DNA of 64,000 nt. Source: Natrinema sp. DC36 (GTDB lineage Archaea > Halobacteriota > Halobacteria > Halobacteriales > Natrialbaceae). Positions 4,448 through 28,361 of the stretch are shown here, one piece after another (positions within the stretch are counted from its first letter, which is position 1; every line of letters starts with the position of its first letter). A program made the translations under genes and the position numbers. Under the pieces are notes generated by a model. The model was not told where the DNA came from. It made no database searches and saw only the letters and a list, made by a program, of their open reading frames with translations. Where the stretch lies: assembly GCF_020405225.1 (NCBI RefSeq), contig NZ_CP084472.1:1178001-1242000 (forward strand), in the 5' to 3' direction.

Positions 4448-6046
4448 ATGTCAGATCATCCCACGATAGGTGACACCCTCGAGCAGACGGTCGACCGTTA
4501 CCCGGAGCGAGACGCGATCATTTATCCGCGGAAGGACCAGTACTGGACCTACGCGGCGTTCAACGAGCGGGTAAACCGGTTGGCAAACGCCTTGCTCGAG
4601 GCCGGAATCGAGACGGGAGACAGGGTCGCGACGGTGCTGTACAACGGCTCGGAGATGGCGCTCACCGTCTACGCGTGCGCGAAGATCGGTGCCGTGTTCA
4701 CCCCGCTGAACTTCCGCCTCCCGGCGGGCGAGATCGAGTACATCGTCAACGACGCCGAGGCGAAGATGGTCCTCTTCGAGTCCGAAACGCGGGAGGCCGT
4801 CGAGGGGGCTCGACCGAGCCTCGAGTCCGTCGACGAGTACGTGTTCATCGACGATGACCGCGAGGACGCGGACGTTCCGGAGTACGCGCGCGGGTTCTAT
4901 GACCTCCTCGAGTCCGGATCCGCCGAACGGCCCGACGTCCGCGTCGACGAGGACGACGTCTACGCCTTCATCTACACGTCGGGAACGACGGGCCGGCCGA
5001 AGGGGGTCGTCCACGAGCACCGGAGCATGGTCGAGCACGACCTGCTGTGTATCGCCGAGATGAACCTCACCCGCGACGACGTGGGCCTGTCGATGATGCC
5101 GCTGTATCACTGCGCCGAACTCCACTGTAACCTGTTCGCGCGGGTCCACCGCGGCGCGGCGAACGTCATCCATCACGAGTTCGAACCGCAGGCGGTTCTC
5201 GAGGCGATCGAGGACCGCGACGTGACGGTTCTCTTCGCCGCACCGACCGCCTGGAACGCGCTCTCGATGACCGCCGCCGAGATGGACGTCGATCTCTCGT
5301 CGCTCCGGCTCGGACTGTACGGGGCGGCTCCGATGCCCGAACAGGTGCTCGAGAACTGCATGGAACACCTCTGCGAGGACTACGTCCAGGCCTACGGAAT
5401 GACGGAGATCGGGCCCGCCGGGGTCTTCCAGTCGGCGGATGAGCAGATCCCGAAACAGGGCTCGGCCGGATTGCCCGGACTCAATCACGAACTGCGCATC
5501 GTCGAACCCGACGCGGACCCGGACCAGGTGGTCGAGCGGGGCGAGATCGGCGAGATACTGATCGCCAGCCCGTGTACGATGCGGGAGTACTGGAACCGCC
5601 CCGAGGCGACCGCGCAGTCGCTGCGCGAGGCCGACGGAACGACGTGGTATTACACCGGCGATCTCGGGTACCGCGACGACGACGGCTACCTCTACGTCGT
5701 CGACCGGAAGGACGACATGATCGTCTCCGGCGGCGAGAACGTCTATCCCGCCGAGGTCGAGGACGTGCTGTTCGCCCACGACGCCGTCGAAGAGGCAGCC
5801 GTCGTCGGCAAACCCGACGACGAGTGGGGCGAGGCGGTCGTCGCCTACGTCGTCGCTGCGGGCGTCGACGCGGCCGCCCTCGACGAGTTCGTCCTCGAGA
5901 GCGATCGACTCGCCGACTTCAAGCGACCGCGAACGTACTACTTCGTCGACGAACTGCCGAAAAATCCCAGCGGCAAGATTCAGAAGTTCAAGCTTCGCGA
6001 GGACGAAGCGGGCCTCGAGCCCGAGGTCGAAACCGTCGCGTCCTGA
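4448..6046 (+). CDS. Acyl-CoA synthetase / AMP-dependent ligase
   Basis: 532 aa. It activates a carboxylic acid to its acyl-CoA through an acyl-adenylate. The phosphate-binding loop [11 protein letters not shown] is at about 177-187, the A5 motif AYGMTEIGP near 315, the [23 protein letters not shown] hinge region near 400-425, and the catalytic lysine in NPSGKIQKF close to the C-terminus. The ATG at 4448 was chosen over the upstream 4280 because a TATA element sits 26-31 bases before it and the protein then begins at the family's usual position. Chain length and substrate cannot be told from sequence; medium/long-chain fatty acids are plausible. Confidence 0.9.
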
Positions 6047-22606: not shown

Positions 22607-22785
22607 ACACCACCGTATCGTCGGCCGGTGCCTAAATGGTTCGTTCCCGATCGATCGAGACGAGAGCGGACGGCCGACCGCGATCTCACGCGTTTGCGAT
22701 GAGCGCCGCTTCCGGACCGGCGCAAGCATTGTGATCTTGCGAAATGGCCGTTGCACTTTACATACTCGGTGCTCGACTACGAACG

Positions 22786-24597
22786 ATGATACAGGGATCT
22801 GACCCCATCTTCTTGATTTACATACTTTCGGCGCTGGTGAGCGGTGCACTCGCGGTGATTCTCTGGCAGCACCGCGGGAAGACCGGCGTGATCCCGCTTC
22901 TCGGGACCGTCCTCGCGGTGGGGGTGTGGGACGTGTCGCTGGTGTTACTGTACGGTGTCGATCATCCCCTTGCAATCACCGTCCTGACCGGAACGTTATT
23001 CCTGGGCGTCGGATTCGCGACGATGACGTTTCTCGTCTTCACCCTCGTGTACACCGGACGGGAGCAATTCCTCACGACTCCGATACTCGCCGTCCTGTCG
23101 GCTGAACCGATACTGTTGGCCGTCCTCGCCGTCGTCAATCCGTCTAATCTTCTCTTCGAGTCGTTCAACGGCGCCTTTAATCCCGGCCCGCTACTCTGGA
23201 TACACCTCGGCTACGCGTACCTCGTTTTGGGACTGGTGACGGTCCTCATATTCGGATTTCTCTACCGGTCTCGGTCGCTGTACAAGGGCCAGAGTGCAGC
23301 GCTCCTCGCCGGAACCCTCGCGACCTGGATCGCAAACGGCGTCTACGTCGCCGGTTTCGTCGAGTTCGATACGTCACCGATCGGATTCGTCGTGGCCGGA
23401 TCGTTGTACGCGGTCGCCATTGTTCGCTACCGACTGGCCGACGTCGTCCCGATCGCTCGCGATCGCGTCATCGATACCGTCACAGACGCCGTCTTCGTCG
23501 TCGATACGGGTGACCGGATCATCGATATCAATCCCGCCGCGCGGGACCTGTTCGAGGACGCCGACAGAGCCGTGATCGGAACCGATGTCCACTCGTTGGT
23601 CGACGGCTATCCCGTCTTGGAAGAACAGTACGACGAGATCACGACCGCCCTGGTCGAATCGGAGCGGGAGTTTTCGCTCGATACCGTCGCCTTCCACGTT
23701 CGGTCGACGCCGATCGAGGACAGCCGGGATCGCCACGTCGGCTGGCTGCTCATCATCCGTGACATTACCGAACGGATACGCCACGAAGAACGCCTCGAGC
23801 AACAGAACGAGCGTCTGGAACAGTTCGCGAACATCGTTTCCCACGATCTTCGAAACCCGCTGAACGTCGCGGACGGCTACCTCGATCTTGCTCGCGAGGC
23901 CGACGATCCGGTCCAGTATTTCGACGAGATCGAGCGATCACACGACCGAATGGAGACGATCATCGAAGACGTGCTCGCGCTCGCCCGGGAGGGATCGGCG
24001 GTCACCGATCCCGAACCGGTCTCACTCGCCGATCTCTCCGAGCGAGCCTGGGAGAACGTCGACACCGGCGATTCCACCCTCTCCGTCGCGTCGGAGTTGA
24101 CCTTCTTCGGCGACTCCGACCGAGTGGTGCGCCTGTTCGAGAACTTGTTTCGCAACGCCGTCGAACACGGTTCGACGAGCCCTGACTCGCAGGCTCGTCA
24201 GGACGCCGTGGAGCACGGCTCCACGAGCCGTTCAGAACCTGACGGTTCTGAAGACGCGATCGAACACGGCATCCCGGACGAGCGCAACGAGGATGACGTG
24301 ACGGCCGCGTCGCTTGCGGTCGACGTGGGGGCGGTCACGTCCGACAGTGGCGATCCGGTGGGTTTCTACGTCGCTGACGACGGTCGGGGTTTGCCTGAGG
24401 GGGGCGAACGCGTCTTCGAGGACGGGTATTCCACCGCACAGGACGGCACCGGGTTCGGGCTGAGTATCGTCCGGGGTATCGCGACCGCTCACGGCTGGTC
24501 CGTCGAGGCCGGCGAGAGCGACACTGGCGGTGCCAAGTTCGAATTCCTCGGCATCGAGGTCGCCGTTCCGGACGAACCCGAACGGACGGTTCGGTAA
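22786..24597 (+). CDS. Membrane histidine kinase 1, with in-frame insertions
   Basis: 603 aa. An N-terminal seven-helix sensor (about 8-215, HisKA_7TM type) is followed by a PAS-like domain (VTDAVFVVDTGDRIIDINPAARDLF, about 230-330), a HisKA domain with the phosphoacceptor His353 in VSHDLRNPLNVADGYLDL, and a HATPase domain (N box ENLFRNAVEHG 452-462, G1 DDGRG 531-535, G2 GTGFGLS 554-560). After the N box the motif AVEHGSTS is repeated twice more (474-481, then AIEHG 491-495), the product of palindromic DNA. Start 22786 is preferred to 22744 because a TATA-like TTTACATAC (22757-22765) lies between the two. No response regulator is adjacent. Confidence 0.9.
   Translation: MIQGSDPIFLIYILSALVSGALAVILWQHRGKTGVIPLLGTVLAVGVWDVSLVLLYGVDHPLAITVLTGTLFLGVGFATMTFLVFTLVYTGREQFLTTPILAVLSAEPILLAVLAVVNPSNLLFESFNGAFNPGPLLWIHLGYAYLVLGLVTVLIFGFLYRSRSLYKGQSAALLAGTLATWIANGVYVAGFVEFDTSPIGFVVAGSLYAVAIVRYRLADVVPIARDRVIDTVTDAVFVVDTGDRIIDINPAARDLFEDADRAVIGTDVHSLVDGYPVLEEQYDEITTALVESEREFSLDTVAFHVRSTPIEDSRDRHVGWLLIIRDITERIRHEERLEQQNERLEQFANIVSHDLRNPLNVADGYLDLAREADDPVQYFDEIERSHDRMETIIEDVLALAREGSAVTDPEPVSLADLSERAWENVDTGDSTLSVASELTFFGDSDRVVRLFENLFRNAVEHGSTSPDSQARQDAVEHGSTSRSEPDGSEDAIEHGIPDERNEDDVTAASLAVDVGAVTSDSGDPVGFYVADDGRGLPEGGERVFEDGYSTAQDGTGFGLSIVRGIATAHGWSVEAGESDTGGAKFEFLGIEVAVPDEPERTVR
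24174..24252 (+). repeat. Pair of in-frame palindromic insertions in histidine kinase 1
   Basis: Two inverted repeats lie inside the coding region just after the N box. The first is GACGAGCC (24174-24181) with GGCTCGTC (24192-24199), overlapping CCTGAC/GTCAGG. The second is TTCAGAACC (24231-24239) with GGTTCTGAA (24244-24252), a perfect 9-bp stem with a 4-base loop. Each is followed by a codon-diverged copy of the (D/N)A(V/I)EHG motif. The two sister kinases lack them. Confidence 0.75.
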
Positions 24598-24699
24598 CCG
24601 ACTGCGTCGGCCGATTCGGTCGACCACTGACCGGACCCCGCTCGCCGTGTCAGTCGAACGGCCAGTGTACTTTATGTGTTCGCTACTCGAGTACGCACA

Positions 24700-26472
24700 A
24701 TGATCCCCGGCGCAGAGATCGGTTATGTACAGCCGATCTACGCGATCGTGACGCTCAACAGCGTGATACTCGCCGGGGTGTTGTGGCGCTATCGCGGCCA
24801 CACGGGGGTGACCCCGCTACTTGGGAACGTCCTCTGTGCGGGGATGTGGGCTGGGTCGTTGCTCGCACTGACGGTCATCGACAGCGGTCCGCTTGCCCTC
24901 GCGTTTCTGGGATTGCTGTTTCTCGGCGTCGGGTTCTCGTCGATGACGCTGCTGGTCTTCACGCTCGAGTACACTGGCCGAGAACGGTTCGTCCGACCGT
25001 CGGTCCTCGCCGCGCTTTCCATCGAGCCGGTCCTCGTCGTTCTCTTCGCGGTCGTCAACCCCGGGAACCTCTTTTTCACGCTGTCGGGGGACGCTGTCGA
25101 ATGGGGGATCGCGTTTTGGATCCACGTTGTCTACGCCTACGCGATCCTGGCCATCACTACGGCACTGATCTTCGACCTGCTCTACCGCTCGCGATCGCTC
25201 TACCGCGGGCAGAGCGCCGCACTGCTCGTCGGGACGATCGCCGCCTGGATCGCCAACGTCGTCTATATCGCCGGTCCGATCGAGTTCGATACGTCGCCGA
25301 TCGGCTTCCTCGTGGCTGGAATTTTGTACGGTGTCGCGATCGTTCGCTACCGGCTGACCGACATCGTCCCGATCGCGCGCGACCGCGTCCTCGAGACCGT
25401 TTCCGACGGCATTTTCGTCGTTAACGACGAGGATCGACTTATCGACATCAATCCGGAGGGACGCGGGATCCTGCGGATCGTCGGTGTCGACGAGGGGGAG
25501 CAGCTCATCGGACGCCCGTTCCCGTCACTGGTCGACGGGACGGCGTTTCTGGATCAGTACGGAGAGATAACGAGTCGGGACGAGGAGACCACCGTCGAGG
25601 TTTCGACCGCGGCGAATCACTTTCAGGTGATCGCGACCCCGATCGACGACGGTCGCGATCGCCACGTCGGCTGGCTGTTGATCGCCCACGACGTCACCCA
25701 ACGAAAACGTCACGAGGAGCGCCTCGAGCAGCAAAACGAACGACTCAAGCGGTTCGCGGATATCGTCTCACACGACCTGCGAAACCCGCTGAACGTCGCC
25801 GACGGCTACCTCGGTCTCGCTCGCGAGGCCGACGATCCGGCCCCGTATTTCGACGAGATCGAGCGATCACACGACCGAATGGAGACGATCATCGAGGACG
25901 TGCTCGCGCTGGCCCGCAACGGAGCGGACGTCACCGATCCGAAACCGGTCTCACTCGCCGATCTCGCCGAGCAAGCCTGGGAGAGCGTCGACACCGGCGA
26001 TGCCTCCCTCTCCGTGACGTCCGATACGACGATTCTCGCCGATGCGAAGCGGGTGACACGCCTGCTCGAGAATCTGTTTCGGAACAGCGTCGAGCACGGG
26101 ACACCGGACGGAACGGACGACGGCGCGGACCCGATCGGTTCGTCGCTCGAGGTCGAGGTGGCCCCCATCGCCGCGGACGATGGCGGAGGATCGATGGGGT
26201 TCTCCGTTGCCGACGACGGTCGGGGACTGCCCGATGGGGGCGAAGACGTCTTCGAGGACGGCTACACGACCGATGCGGAGGGAACCGGATTCGGCCTGAG
26301 CATCGTTCGGGGAATCGCGGCCGCTCACGGCTGGACCGTCACTGCCGGTGAGAGCGAGCGCGGTGGTGCCAGGTTCGAGTTCACCGGTGTCGATTCCGAC
26401 GGTGCCAGCGAGTCCGGCGCGGACGATTCGCTCGGGACACCCGGGTCTCCCGCGCGAGCGTCCGACGGATAG
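24700..26472 (+). CDS. Membrane histidine kinase 2
   Basis: 590 aa, a close paralog of its neighbour: seven-helix sensor (about 8-215), PAS-like domain (VSDGIFVVNDEDRLIDINPEGRGIL), HisKA with His358 in VSHDLRNPLNVADGYLGL, and HATPase (ENLFRNSVEHG, DDGRGLPDGGE, GTGFGLSIV). It has no repeat insertion after the N box. ATG 24700 is placed by a TATA-like TTTATG (24671-24676) in a leader that aligns with that of kinase 1, so the two share promoter sequence as well as coding sequence. The C-terminus is Ser/Asp-rich. Signal and partner regulator are unknown. Confidence 0.9.
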   Translation: MIPGAEIGYVQPIYAIVTLNSVILAGVLWRYRGHTGVTPLLGNVLCAGMWAGSLLALTVIDSGPLALAFLGLLFLGVGFSSMTLLVFTLEYTGRERFVRPSVLAALSIEPVLVVLFAVVNPGNLFFTLSGDAVEWGIAFWIHVVYAYAILAITTALIFDLLYRSRSLYRGQSAALLVGTIAAWIANVVYIAGPIEFDTSPIGFLVAGILYGVAIVRYRLTDIVPIARDRVLETVSDGIFVVNDEDRLIDINPEGRGILRIVGVDEGEQLIGRPFPSLVDGTAFLDQYGEITSRDEETTVEVSTAANHFQVIATPIDDGRDRHVGWLLIAHDVTQRKRHEERLEQQNERLKRFADIVSHDLRNPLNVADGYLGLAREADDPAPYFDEIERSHDRMETIIEDVLALARNGADVTDPKPVSLADLAEQAWESVDTGDASLSVTSDTTILADAKRVTRLLENLFRNSVEHGTPDGTDDGADPIGSSLEVEVAPIAADDGGGSMGFSVADDGRGLPDGGEDVFEDGYTTDAEGTGFGLSIVRGIAAAHGWTVTAGESERGGARFEFTGVDSDGASESGADDSLGTPGSPARASDG

Positions 26473-26597
26473 CTGTCGGATACGACGCCGTCCTGAACCG
26501 AGGCCGTCCTGAACCGACGCTGTCGGGCAGTCGACCGGTCGTTCGAGCGACATCATCGGCCGGTGCCTATTACTTGATTCGGACTTCGTATCAGGCG

Positions 26598-28361
26598 ATG
26601 GCGGATCTCCTGTCGATCACTCAGATGATCTACGTGCTCGCCACGCTCACGGCCGTCGTGGCGAGCGCCTTCCTCTGGCAGTATCGGAACCGAACCGGCG
26701 CGCTGACGCTCCTGTCGCTGCTGGGCGGGCTTGCGATCTGGAACGGGTCGGTTTCGATCGTTCTCTTCACCGAAAGCGTCACAGTCGCTTCGCTCTCGCT
26801 CCGAACGGTGTCGGTCGGTATCGCGCTCGTCTCGCTAATGAAACTCGTGTTCGTCCTCGAGTACACCGGGCGGGAACGCTTGCTTCGGCCGCGAATCGTC
26901 GGCGCGCTCGCGATTCCGTCGGTGGCTCTCGTGGTCTTCGCGTACACTAACCCAGGCAATCTCCTGTATACGACGCTGGAGCCGGCCACGGCGGGACCGA
27001 TAGCGATCACTTACGAGTTCGGCCCCGCAGTCGTGCTCTACCTCGGGTACGCGTACGCAGTGAACGCCGTCACTACCGCGATGATCCTCGGGTTTCTGTA
27101 TCGATCGCGGGCGGTATATCGCGGCCAGAGTCTCGTCCTGCTCGGTGCGGCGGTGGCACCATGGCTTGCACACGTGACCTACGCACTCGACCTCGTCCCG
27201 ATCGATCCGACGCCGATCGGTGGTATCACGTCGGGCATCCTGTTTACGGTCGCCGTCGTTCGGTACCGACTGTTGGACCTCATGCCCGTCGCCCGAGATC
27301 GAGTGTTCGACAGCGTCACCGACGCTATCTTCGTCATCGACGATACCGATCGCCTCATCGATATCAACCCCGAAGGCCGCCGGCTGCTCGATCGCGTCGG
27401 TGACGATACCGCTTCTCCCATCGGTCGACCGTTTCCATCGGTGTTCGCCGGAACGGACTTCAGTGACCGGTACGAGACCCTCACCGACGGCGGGGAAGGG
27501 ACGGCCGCACGGGCGACGATCGACTCGTCCCATTTCCTGTTGACGGTGACGCCGATCGACGACGACCGAAATCGACACGTCGGCTGGCTGCTGATCGCCC
27601 GCGACATCACCGACCGTACCAACCGCGAATCGAAACTCGAGGAATCGAACGCGCGTCTCGAGCAGTTCGCCAACGTCGTCTCGCACGATCTCCGGAACCC
27701 GCTAACCGTCGCCAGGGGCTATCTCGAACTCGCGTCCGAAACGGACGACAACGATGGGTATTTCGACGAAATCGAACGCTCTCACGAGCGGATGGAAACG
27801 ATTATCGAGGACGTCCTCACGCTCGCCCGTGAGGGGGCGGCCGTCACCGACCCGGAGCCCGTTGCGCTCAACACGATCGCCGAAACGGCCTGGGACGGCG
27901 TCGATACCGGATCGGCATCGCTCGCCATCGACGCGGACGTCTCGATCTTCGCGGACCGGACGCGGTTGACGCGGTTGCTCGAGAACCTGTTTCGCAATTC
28001 GATCGACCACGGGACGGAGAGCGCGGACGGTCCCGGCCTCGAGATTCGAGTGGGAACGATCGACGACTCCGCGGACGGCTCTTTCGACGGGTTTTACGTC
28101 GAGGATGACGGCATCGGTATTCCGGCCTGCCGACGGGAGAGAGTCTTCGAAGGCGGGTACACGACGGACGAGGAGGGGACGGGGTTCGGGCTTTCGATCG
28201 TCGACCGAATTTCGACGGCCCACGGCTGGACGAGCGGTAGTACCGAAAGCGAGACCGGCGGTGCCAGATTCGAATTCCGTGGGGTCGATTCGGTCCCCGA
28301 TTCGAGCCCGGGGGATTCCGCTTCCGTGGCCGATATCGAGGCCGAATCTCGACGGGACTGA
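26598..28361 (+). CDS. Membrane histidine kinase 3
   Basis: 587 aa, a more distant paralog in the same tandem set. Seven-helix sensor (about 10-225), PAS-like domain (VTDAIFVIDDTDRLIDINPEGRRLL), HisKA with His363 in VSHDLRNPLTVARGYLEL, HATPase (ENLFRNSIDHGTE, DDGIGIPACRRERVFEGGYTT, GTGFGLSIV). ATG 26598 (MADLLSITQM) follows CTATTAC at 26567-26573 by about 27 bases; the TTG-started extension is not needed. All three kinases have complete catalytic boxes, so redundancy or divergence of input signals is more likely than decay. Confidence 0.9.
   Translation: MADLLSITQMIYVLATLTAVVASAFLWQYRNRTGALTLLSLLGGLAIWNGSVSIVLFTESVTVASLSLRTVSVGIALVSLMKLVFVLEYTGRERLLRPRIVGALAIPSVALVVFAYTNPGNLLYTTLEPATAGPIAITYEFGPAVVLYLGYAYAVNAVTTAMILGFLYRSRAVYRGQSLVLLGAAVAPWLAHVTYALDLVPIDPTPIGGITSGILFTVAVVRYRLLDLMPVARDRVFDSVTDAIFVIDDTDRLIDINPEGRRLLDRVGDDTASPIGRPFPSVFAGTDFSDRYETLTDGGEGTAARATIDSSHFLLTVTPIDDDRNRHVGWLLIARDITDRTNRESKLEESNARLEQFANVVSHDLRNPLTVARGYLELASETDDNDGYFDEIERSHERMETIIEDVLTLAREGAAVTDPEPVALNTIAETAWDGVDTGSASLAIDADVSIFADRTRLTRLLENLFRNSIDHGTESADGPGLEIRVGTIDDSADGSFDGFYVEDDGIGIPACRRERVFEGGYTTDEEGTGFGLSIVDRISTAHGWTSGSTESETGGARFEFRGVDSVPDSSPGDSASVADIEAESRRD

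Follow-up and report, generated by a model that had tools for sequence, protein, structure and literature searches.

Most known palindromes that form part of protein-coding sequence come from intracellular bacteria, and the way in which they move has not been worked out. Rickettsia palindromic elements (RPEs; Ogata 2000; reviewed in PMC2229807 and PMC10969869) are palindromic DNA found in frame in many unrelated protein genes and also between genes, and the proteins tolerate the insert. In-frame coding palindromes of Wolbachia (Ogata 2005, via PMC2996958 and PMC2229807) and in-frame palindromic coding repeats of an archaeon, Methanocaldococcus jannaschii (Suyama 2005, via PMC2996958), are mentioned here as the citing papers present them. 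PARCELs (PMC2996958) are tandem coding repeats with dyad symmetry in the DNA and a 25-residue amphipathic motif, and were reported to be absent from Archaea. GTAG- and CGTC-tagged REPs (Di Nocera 2013, PMC3733652) are short tagged hairpins, often dimers, which are mostly intergenic with some copies in genes; two of the RPE families belong to the CGTC group, and the survey, which covers bacterial phyla, does not mention haloarchaea in its text (PMC3733652). Among haloarchaeal repeats, PATEs and the small mobile repeats of Haloquadratum (PMC3119063) are transposase-free, have palindromes near their ends and are tied to IS605-type elements.

The insert in the Natrinema kinase gene

The window (the whole stretch of DNA analysed, 64,000 nt of Natrinema sp. 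DC36) contains, very probably, a palindromic mobile element of haloarchaea in two tandem copies, which in functional type belongs with RPEs and tagged REPs. The host gene (22744 to 24597, forward strand, as are all features of the insert) is an open reading frame for a HisKA_7TM-PAS-HisKA-HATPase_c histidine kinase of 617 aa (Pfam PF16927, PF00989, PF00512 and PF02518). The insert totals 99 nt, a 48-nt unit and a 51-nt unit in tandem after the N-box, and the protein reads FRNAVEHG, then STSPDSQARQDAVEHG, then STSRSEPDGSEDAIEHG. Directly 5' of it is the target hexamer AACGCC (24154 to 24159), the N-box codons for Asn-Ala; the same (N)ACGCC left flank was found where empty orthologues define the site.

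Unit 1 (24160 to 24207, encoding VEHGSTSPDSQARQDA) was matched by the model R2 at 24157-24207 with 77.9 bits. Its hairpin A, GTCGAAC-ACG-GTTCGAC (24160 to 24176), has a left arm that coincides with N-box codons; hairpin B, CCTGAC-TCGCAGGCTC-GTCAGG (24181 to 24202), is followed by ACGCC (24203 to 24207), which repeats the target sequence at the 3' end of the unit. Unit 2 (24208 to 24258, encoding VEHGSTSRSEPDGSEDA) is of a type also present in L004, L010 and L281. Its hairpin A, GTGGAGC-ACG-GCTCCAC (24208 to 24224), has two pairs changed on both sides relative to unit 1, while its hairpin B, TTCAGAACC-TGAC-GGTTCTGAA (24231 to 24252), is unrelated in sequence to that of unit 1 and occurs once in the Natrinema sp. 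DC36 genome. The last N-box copy, ATCGAACACGGC, lies 3' of the insert (24259 to 24270). As single-stranded DNA, the 116-nt stretch folded at -36.1 kcal/mol (z = -4.3 against shuffles). With the protein kept fixed and codons sampled from local usage, the B arms were not expected by chance (p = 0.0075 for the 6-bp arms, p = 0.0175 for the 9-bp arms).

The three (N/D)A(V/I)EHG motifs reported in an earlier note on this gene were located, as were the two inverted repeats that it described, GACGAGCC (24174-24181) with GGCTCGTC (24192-24199), and TTCAGAACC (24231-24239) with GGTTCTGAA (24244-24252) around a 4-base loop. The palindromes are real; the pairing of GACGAGCC with GGCTCGTC as a conserved, functional stem was ruled out by covariation, which selected GTCGAAC/GTTCGAC and CCTGAC/GTCAGG instead. 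The statement that the tandem paralogues lack the insert agreed with the sequences of both (24676-26472, FRNSVEHGTPDG..., and 26574-28361, FRNSIDHGTESA...). A period-16 tandem repeat (CGACGCCGTCCTGAAC, 2.6 copies) was observed between the second and third kinase genes, at 26483-26524 of the window.

For the window kinase, no orthologue that is cleanly empty was obtained. The closest orthologue, L326 (G018:C1:3800902-3802287), is 90% identical over the 462 aa of the query, and its ATPase domain resembles that of the second tandem paralogue. It is likely a chimera, which suggests recombination between adjoining kinase genes.

Distribution, hosts and insertion sites

Protein searches gave matches in 42 of 100 relatives and in 150 of the 392 genomes of the order. 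A DNA pattern of the N-box type, with wobble positions left free, was scanned against 84,980 species and matched 97 stretches, all haloarchaeal by title except one, a 5-kb contig binned as Salinivenus. No viral contig matched this N-box-type pattern, and a viral origin was set aside on that account; the only plasmid match was in a kinase on a Natrinema megaplasmid. A second scan, in which hairpin B was specified by its flanks and a portion of its loop alone and which was independent of the N-box, gave 103 matches in 55 of 293 genomes, and the reversed pattern gave none. The broader model R2 had matches in 32 of 41 genomes, with 0-14 copies per genome in most relatives (E<=1e-4). The highest count at this threshold, 38 matches, was observed in G067 (L541, L550-L554), where many were 49-50-nt relatives outside genes. 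A known Rfam family was excluded, as no match above the gathering score was present at the element and only tRNAs were matched in the window and in five loci. No description of a haloarchaeal family or of its peptide was found in the open-access literature searched (subscription papers were outside the search).

The element occurs across the haloarchaeal order, at kinase N-boxes mostly in searches based on the N-box. Matches to the first pattern were in kinases in 145 of 147 cases; most kinase units came from N-box-like queries, so that the apparent kinase preference is partly one of ascertainment. An element confined to kinases was ruled out by the hairpin-B scan. Beyond the window kinase, the element was found in frame at no fewer than 18 other haloarchaeal sites (at least 18), including tRNA-synthetase genes. 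Hosts identified by Pfam were a Rhodanese/Lactamase_B protein (Rhodanese/metallo-hydrolase; three positions, one of them in Natrinema sp. DC36, L500), GluRS (L498, L513), PEBP (L487), CGI-121 (L504), a HAD hydrolase (L470), an alpha/beta hydrolase (L518), a DUF5791 protein (L519), a VLRF1-like release factor (L154) and a tetrapyrrole methylase (L556, L557). Further copies were in unnamed proteins (L011, L505) and in an AI-2E-type transporter (L254) and a receiver-PAS linker (L083), the last two named from sequence appearance only. Antisense copies, also in frame, were found in a beta-helix protein (L474), 8-oxoguanine glycosylase (L563), PheRS-beta (L567), OTC (L568) and Kae1-Bud32 of Natrinema sp. 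DC36 (L555). The last gene had two model matches, one antisense of 57 nt and one sense of 45 nt (L555 602-649 and 1070-1129; C1 about 2,594,700-2,595,230). Compared with solved structures, the OTC copy is a 17-residue insertion (1pvv) and the Kae1-Bud32 copy a 19-residue insertion (3en9). At the place of hairpin A, the kinases from the hairpin-B scan have [VI]EH, and the non-kinase hosts mostly AEL, AEQ, AER or DER. The L083 element lies on the minus strand (about 5900-6000), where the host protein is a hybrid kinase and the segment concerned is its receiver-PAS linker. A shorter second unit there, with the B hairpin CCTGGG-TCG-CCCAGG, causes a frameshift; the genome was assembled from a metagenome, so this may be an assembly error.

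The ends of the insertion were defined by empty and filled orthologues of the metallo-hydrolase. At position 2, the empty L483 reads ACCTACGCC joined directly to GACGACCTG (longer right flank GACGACCTGACGACT), and the filled L481 carries a 48-nt insert at this junction between identical flanks; L502 (empty) and L484 (filled) behave likewise at position 1. The insert begins directly after (N)ACGCC and ends in ACGCC, giving a direct repeat of 5-6 nt. Judged from these empty sites, the whole of hairpin A belongs to the insert, which rules out host sequence to the left of the site as the template for its right arm. In a Natrinema thermotolerans protein, 96 nt of inserted DNA are likewise missing from the orthologues, and one Natrinema kinase had no unit (L349), one unit (L360, L363) or two units (L359, L361) among close relatives. 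Empty orthologues were examined for some sites only, and several non-kinase hosts were left out.

Copies within genes had a length divisible by three in 16 of 16 cases (45, 48, 51 or 57 nt), compared with only 7 of 20 copies outside genes (47 to 58 nt). These numbers are approximate, as the 36 copies were divided by ORF structure, third-position GC and Pfam, and R2 favours 48 nt. The pattern is the one that retention of frame-keeping insertions would give.

Plain tandem duplication, in which the N-box segment slipped in replication and was spread among kinase paralogues by gene conversion with the palindromes incidental, would account for the tandem arrangement, for the copy-number differences between orthologues and for the predominance of kinases in the first scan, and the G-G and C-C mismatches of hairpin A do resemble recombinants of the two main arm types. 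It is very unlikely, and is contradicted as a full account by the single-unit inserts of non-kinase genes, by copies in many unrelated genes and in antisense, and by the covariation of stem positions, including those that change amino acids. Slippage without palindromic DNA, which the earlier note had named as a refuting outcome, was not seen, yet tandem slippage contributes to copy number. The other such outcome, a lack of further occurrences, was excluded by the many matches in haloarchaeal genomes, and the proposed comparison of orthologues with and without the insert yielded the clean 48-nt insert. The note had also suspected a family in other haloarchaeal kinases; that family proved to be order-wide, and neither its non-kinase hosts nor its true stem pairs had been foreseen. 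Its proposal of a mobile palindromic element landing in frame in tolerant loops, similar in idea to RPEs, holds as regards in-frame palindromic DNA in unrelated genes, both orientations and empty and filled orthologues; mobility itself is inferred from presence and absence and was not observed.

Conservation of the DNA structure

The element is about 48 nt long and consists of hairpin A (7-bp arms, 3-nt loop), GAGC, hairpin B (CCTnnn-TCGnnnGCTC-nnnAGG) and ACGCC. Mutual information was calculated for all 1,128 column pairs of 219 aligned 48-nt units, and the top five pairs were all stem pairs. Two are synonymous pairs of hairpin A: 3-15, the wobble positions of Val and Ser (CG 93, GC 83, AT 10, TA 10), and 6-12, the wobble positions of Glu and Gly (AT 104, GC 98). 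In the other three (25-40, 26-39 and 27-38, of hairpin B), covariation alters amino acids. The covariation score was 0.434, against 0.156 when shuffled and 0.048-0.105 with slid partners, and 0.477 against 0.160 shuffled when non-kinase copies were added; these controls do not wholly remove shared ancestry, but neighbouring units within arrays also change both partners of a pair together (counts below). In the independent pattern scan, the free triplets of the B stem were exact reverse complements in 82 of 103 matches, with 12.6 expected from shuffling. In the 45- and 51-nt units the B sequences are unrelated, and most of them form near-perfect palindromes whose arms reach 10 bp. The element also favours codons seldom used by its hosts: GCT accounted for 94% of Ala codons and CCT for 84% of Pro codons, compared with 5.6% and 4.4%, respectively, in the same host genes. 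It is the DNA structure that is conserved, and it dictates the protein sequence.

The units could instead be a protein-level module, a selected flexible loop tuning kinase activity with no role for the DNA; they are always in frame, their peptide STSPxSQARQDAVEHG is conserved, and they are placed between the N-box and the next strand, in a segment unaligned to solved kinases. This explanation is hardly tenable in the face of synonymous covariation at 3-15 and 6-12 and the extreme codon choice; stem complementarity leads and protein sequence follows, and the antisense copies encode a peptide unlike the sense one. Selection of mRNA hairpins for a regulatory role (translation pausing or stability) would be compatible with strong hairpins on the coding strand, and RNA would give equal covariation. 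Among the hairpin-A mismatches of 296 units, however, G.U was not favoured over A.C (10 versus 21), although selection on RNA would prefer G.U, and there is therefore no sign of a coding-strand RNA constraint; this evidence is weak and not decisive, as codon bias can shift the counts. With both orientations occurring and relatives present outside genes, a regulatory role of the mRNA is very improbable.

Adjacent units in arrays showed two-sided, still-pairing differences in 61 cases at 3-15 and 52 at 6-12, against 17 and 14 one-sided differences. These joint changes, the near-perfect palindromes of unrelated make-up in hairpin B and the direct repeats of (G)ACGCC around the inserts would also be explained if, for the same element, the stems were perfected by template-switch (quasi-palindrome) mutation and the units spread by microhomology recombination without a transposase. 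Protein recognition is suggested instead by boundaries that stay constant at 48 nt and by conservation of the loop and end sequence (TCG...GCTC, AGGAC), and the template-switch mechanism is considered possible but doubtful. The data do not separate selection for the hairpin from copying of one arm from the other as the source of stem covariation.

In the arrays L001-L324, neighbours mostly carried different hairpin-A arms (pair 3-15: 61 differ, 24 same). Identical neighbouring units look as if they were lost or avoided, for which there is no established explanation. A further cassette, GRRxASSEPSVADAPED, forms a hairpin of up to 10 bp (GGA AGA CGC ... GCG TCT TCC) followed by another B hairpin (CCTCGG...CCGAGG); this second type was observed within the same arrays in L055, L080, L097, L235, L287 and L293.

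Inferred movement of the element and comparison with known systems

For the preferred reading, a palindromic mobile element, the following course is inferred. One possibility is movement as a hairpin-forming single strand whose structure is recognised by a transposase supplied in trans, of IS200/IS605 type or another; replication template switching at microhomology is the alternative. Most insertions would be lost, survival being limited to in-frame insertions in exposed loops, and the copy number of arrays would then change locally through unequal recombination. Either selection that favours the hairpin or fold-back copying between its arms might maintain stem complementarity. No benefit to the host has to be assumed. 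No transposase has been linked with the element, and no case of transposition was seen. The low copy number, mostly 1-14 per genome (E<=1e-4) against more than 100 in typical REPs, counts against this reading, as does the fact that copy-number change in kinase arrays could largely be simple unequal recombination.

In kinases, the target AACGCC encodes the Asn-Ala of the N-box and hairpin A then encodes VEHG, by which the N-box is rebuilt; the enzyme could presumably stay active after such an insertion. This might indicate a kinase-adapted lineage acting as a self-healing coding insertion, whose hairpin A, spelling V-E-H-G, restores each N-box that is interrupted. We hold this idea tentatively and lean slightly against it. 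If it is true, a selfish palindrome could colonise a whole paralogous gene family at its catalytic motif, like an intein without splicing.

A phenomenon related to the coding palindromes of bacteria is now seen across an order of archaea that are free-living and for which genetic tools exist, and the defined empty sites, the fixed target flank and the strong stem covariation make the mechanism of such elements testable. Selfish hairpins have become coding sequence of kinases, tRNA synthetases and KEOPS subunits, a recurrent conversion of repeat DNA into protein.

Like PARCELs, the element is a tandem coding repeat with dyad symmetry, but its units are mostly 15-17 residues and hydrophilic, and membership of that group was ruled out by the defining 25-residue amphipathic motif, which it does not meet. 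PATEs share the haloarchaeal setting and have palindromes only near their termini. A CGTC-like tag at the foot of the stem would liken the element to tagged REPs, as hairpin B follows GGCGTC on the other strand. At the foot of stem B, most coding units have GACG (CGTC on the other strand), but several of the copies that lie outside genes have GACA, GACC or GACT. In these relatives GTC alone is well conserved, and the element differs further in its loops of 10-13 nt and its low copy number. The CGTC tag is thus only partly conserved, and membership of the REPs is open. With RPEs, the element shares its in-frame presence in unrelated protein genes and its occurrence between genes. RPEs, however, are single palindromes of about 100-150 bp (105-150 bp) in Rickettsia, whereas the haloarchaeal element is 45-57 nt long, has two hairpins, is often in tandem and has a fixed (N)ACGCC left flank. 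By length and by host it is not an RPE; it is functionally nearest to RPEs and tagged REPs, and it is a distinct haloarchaeal family.
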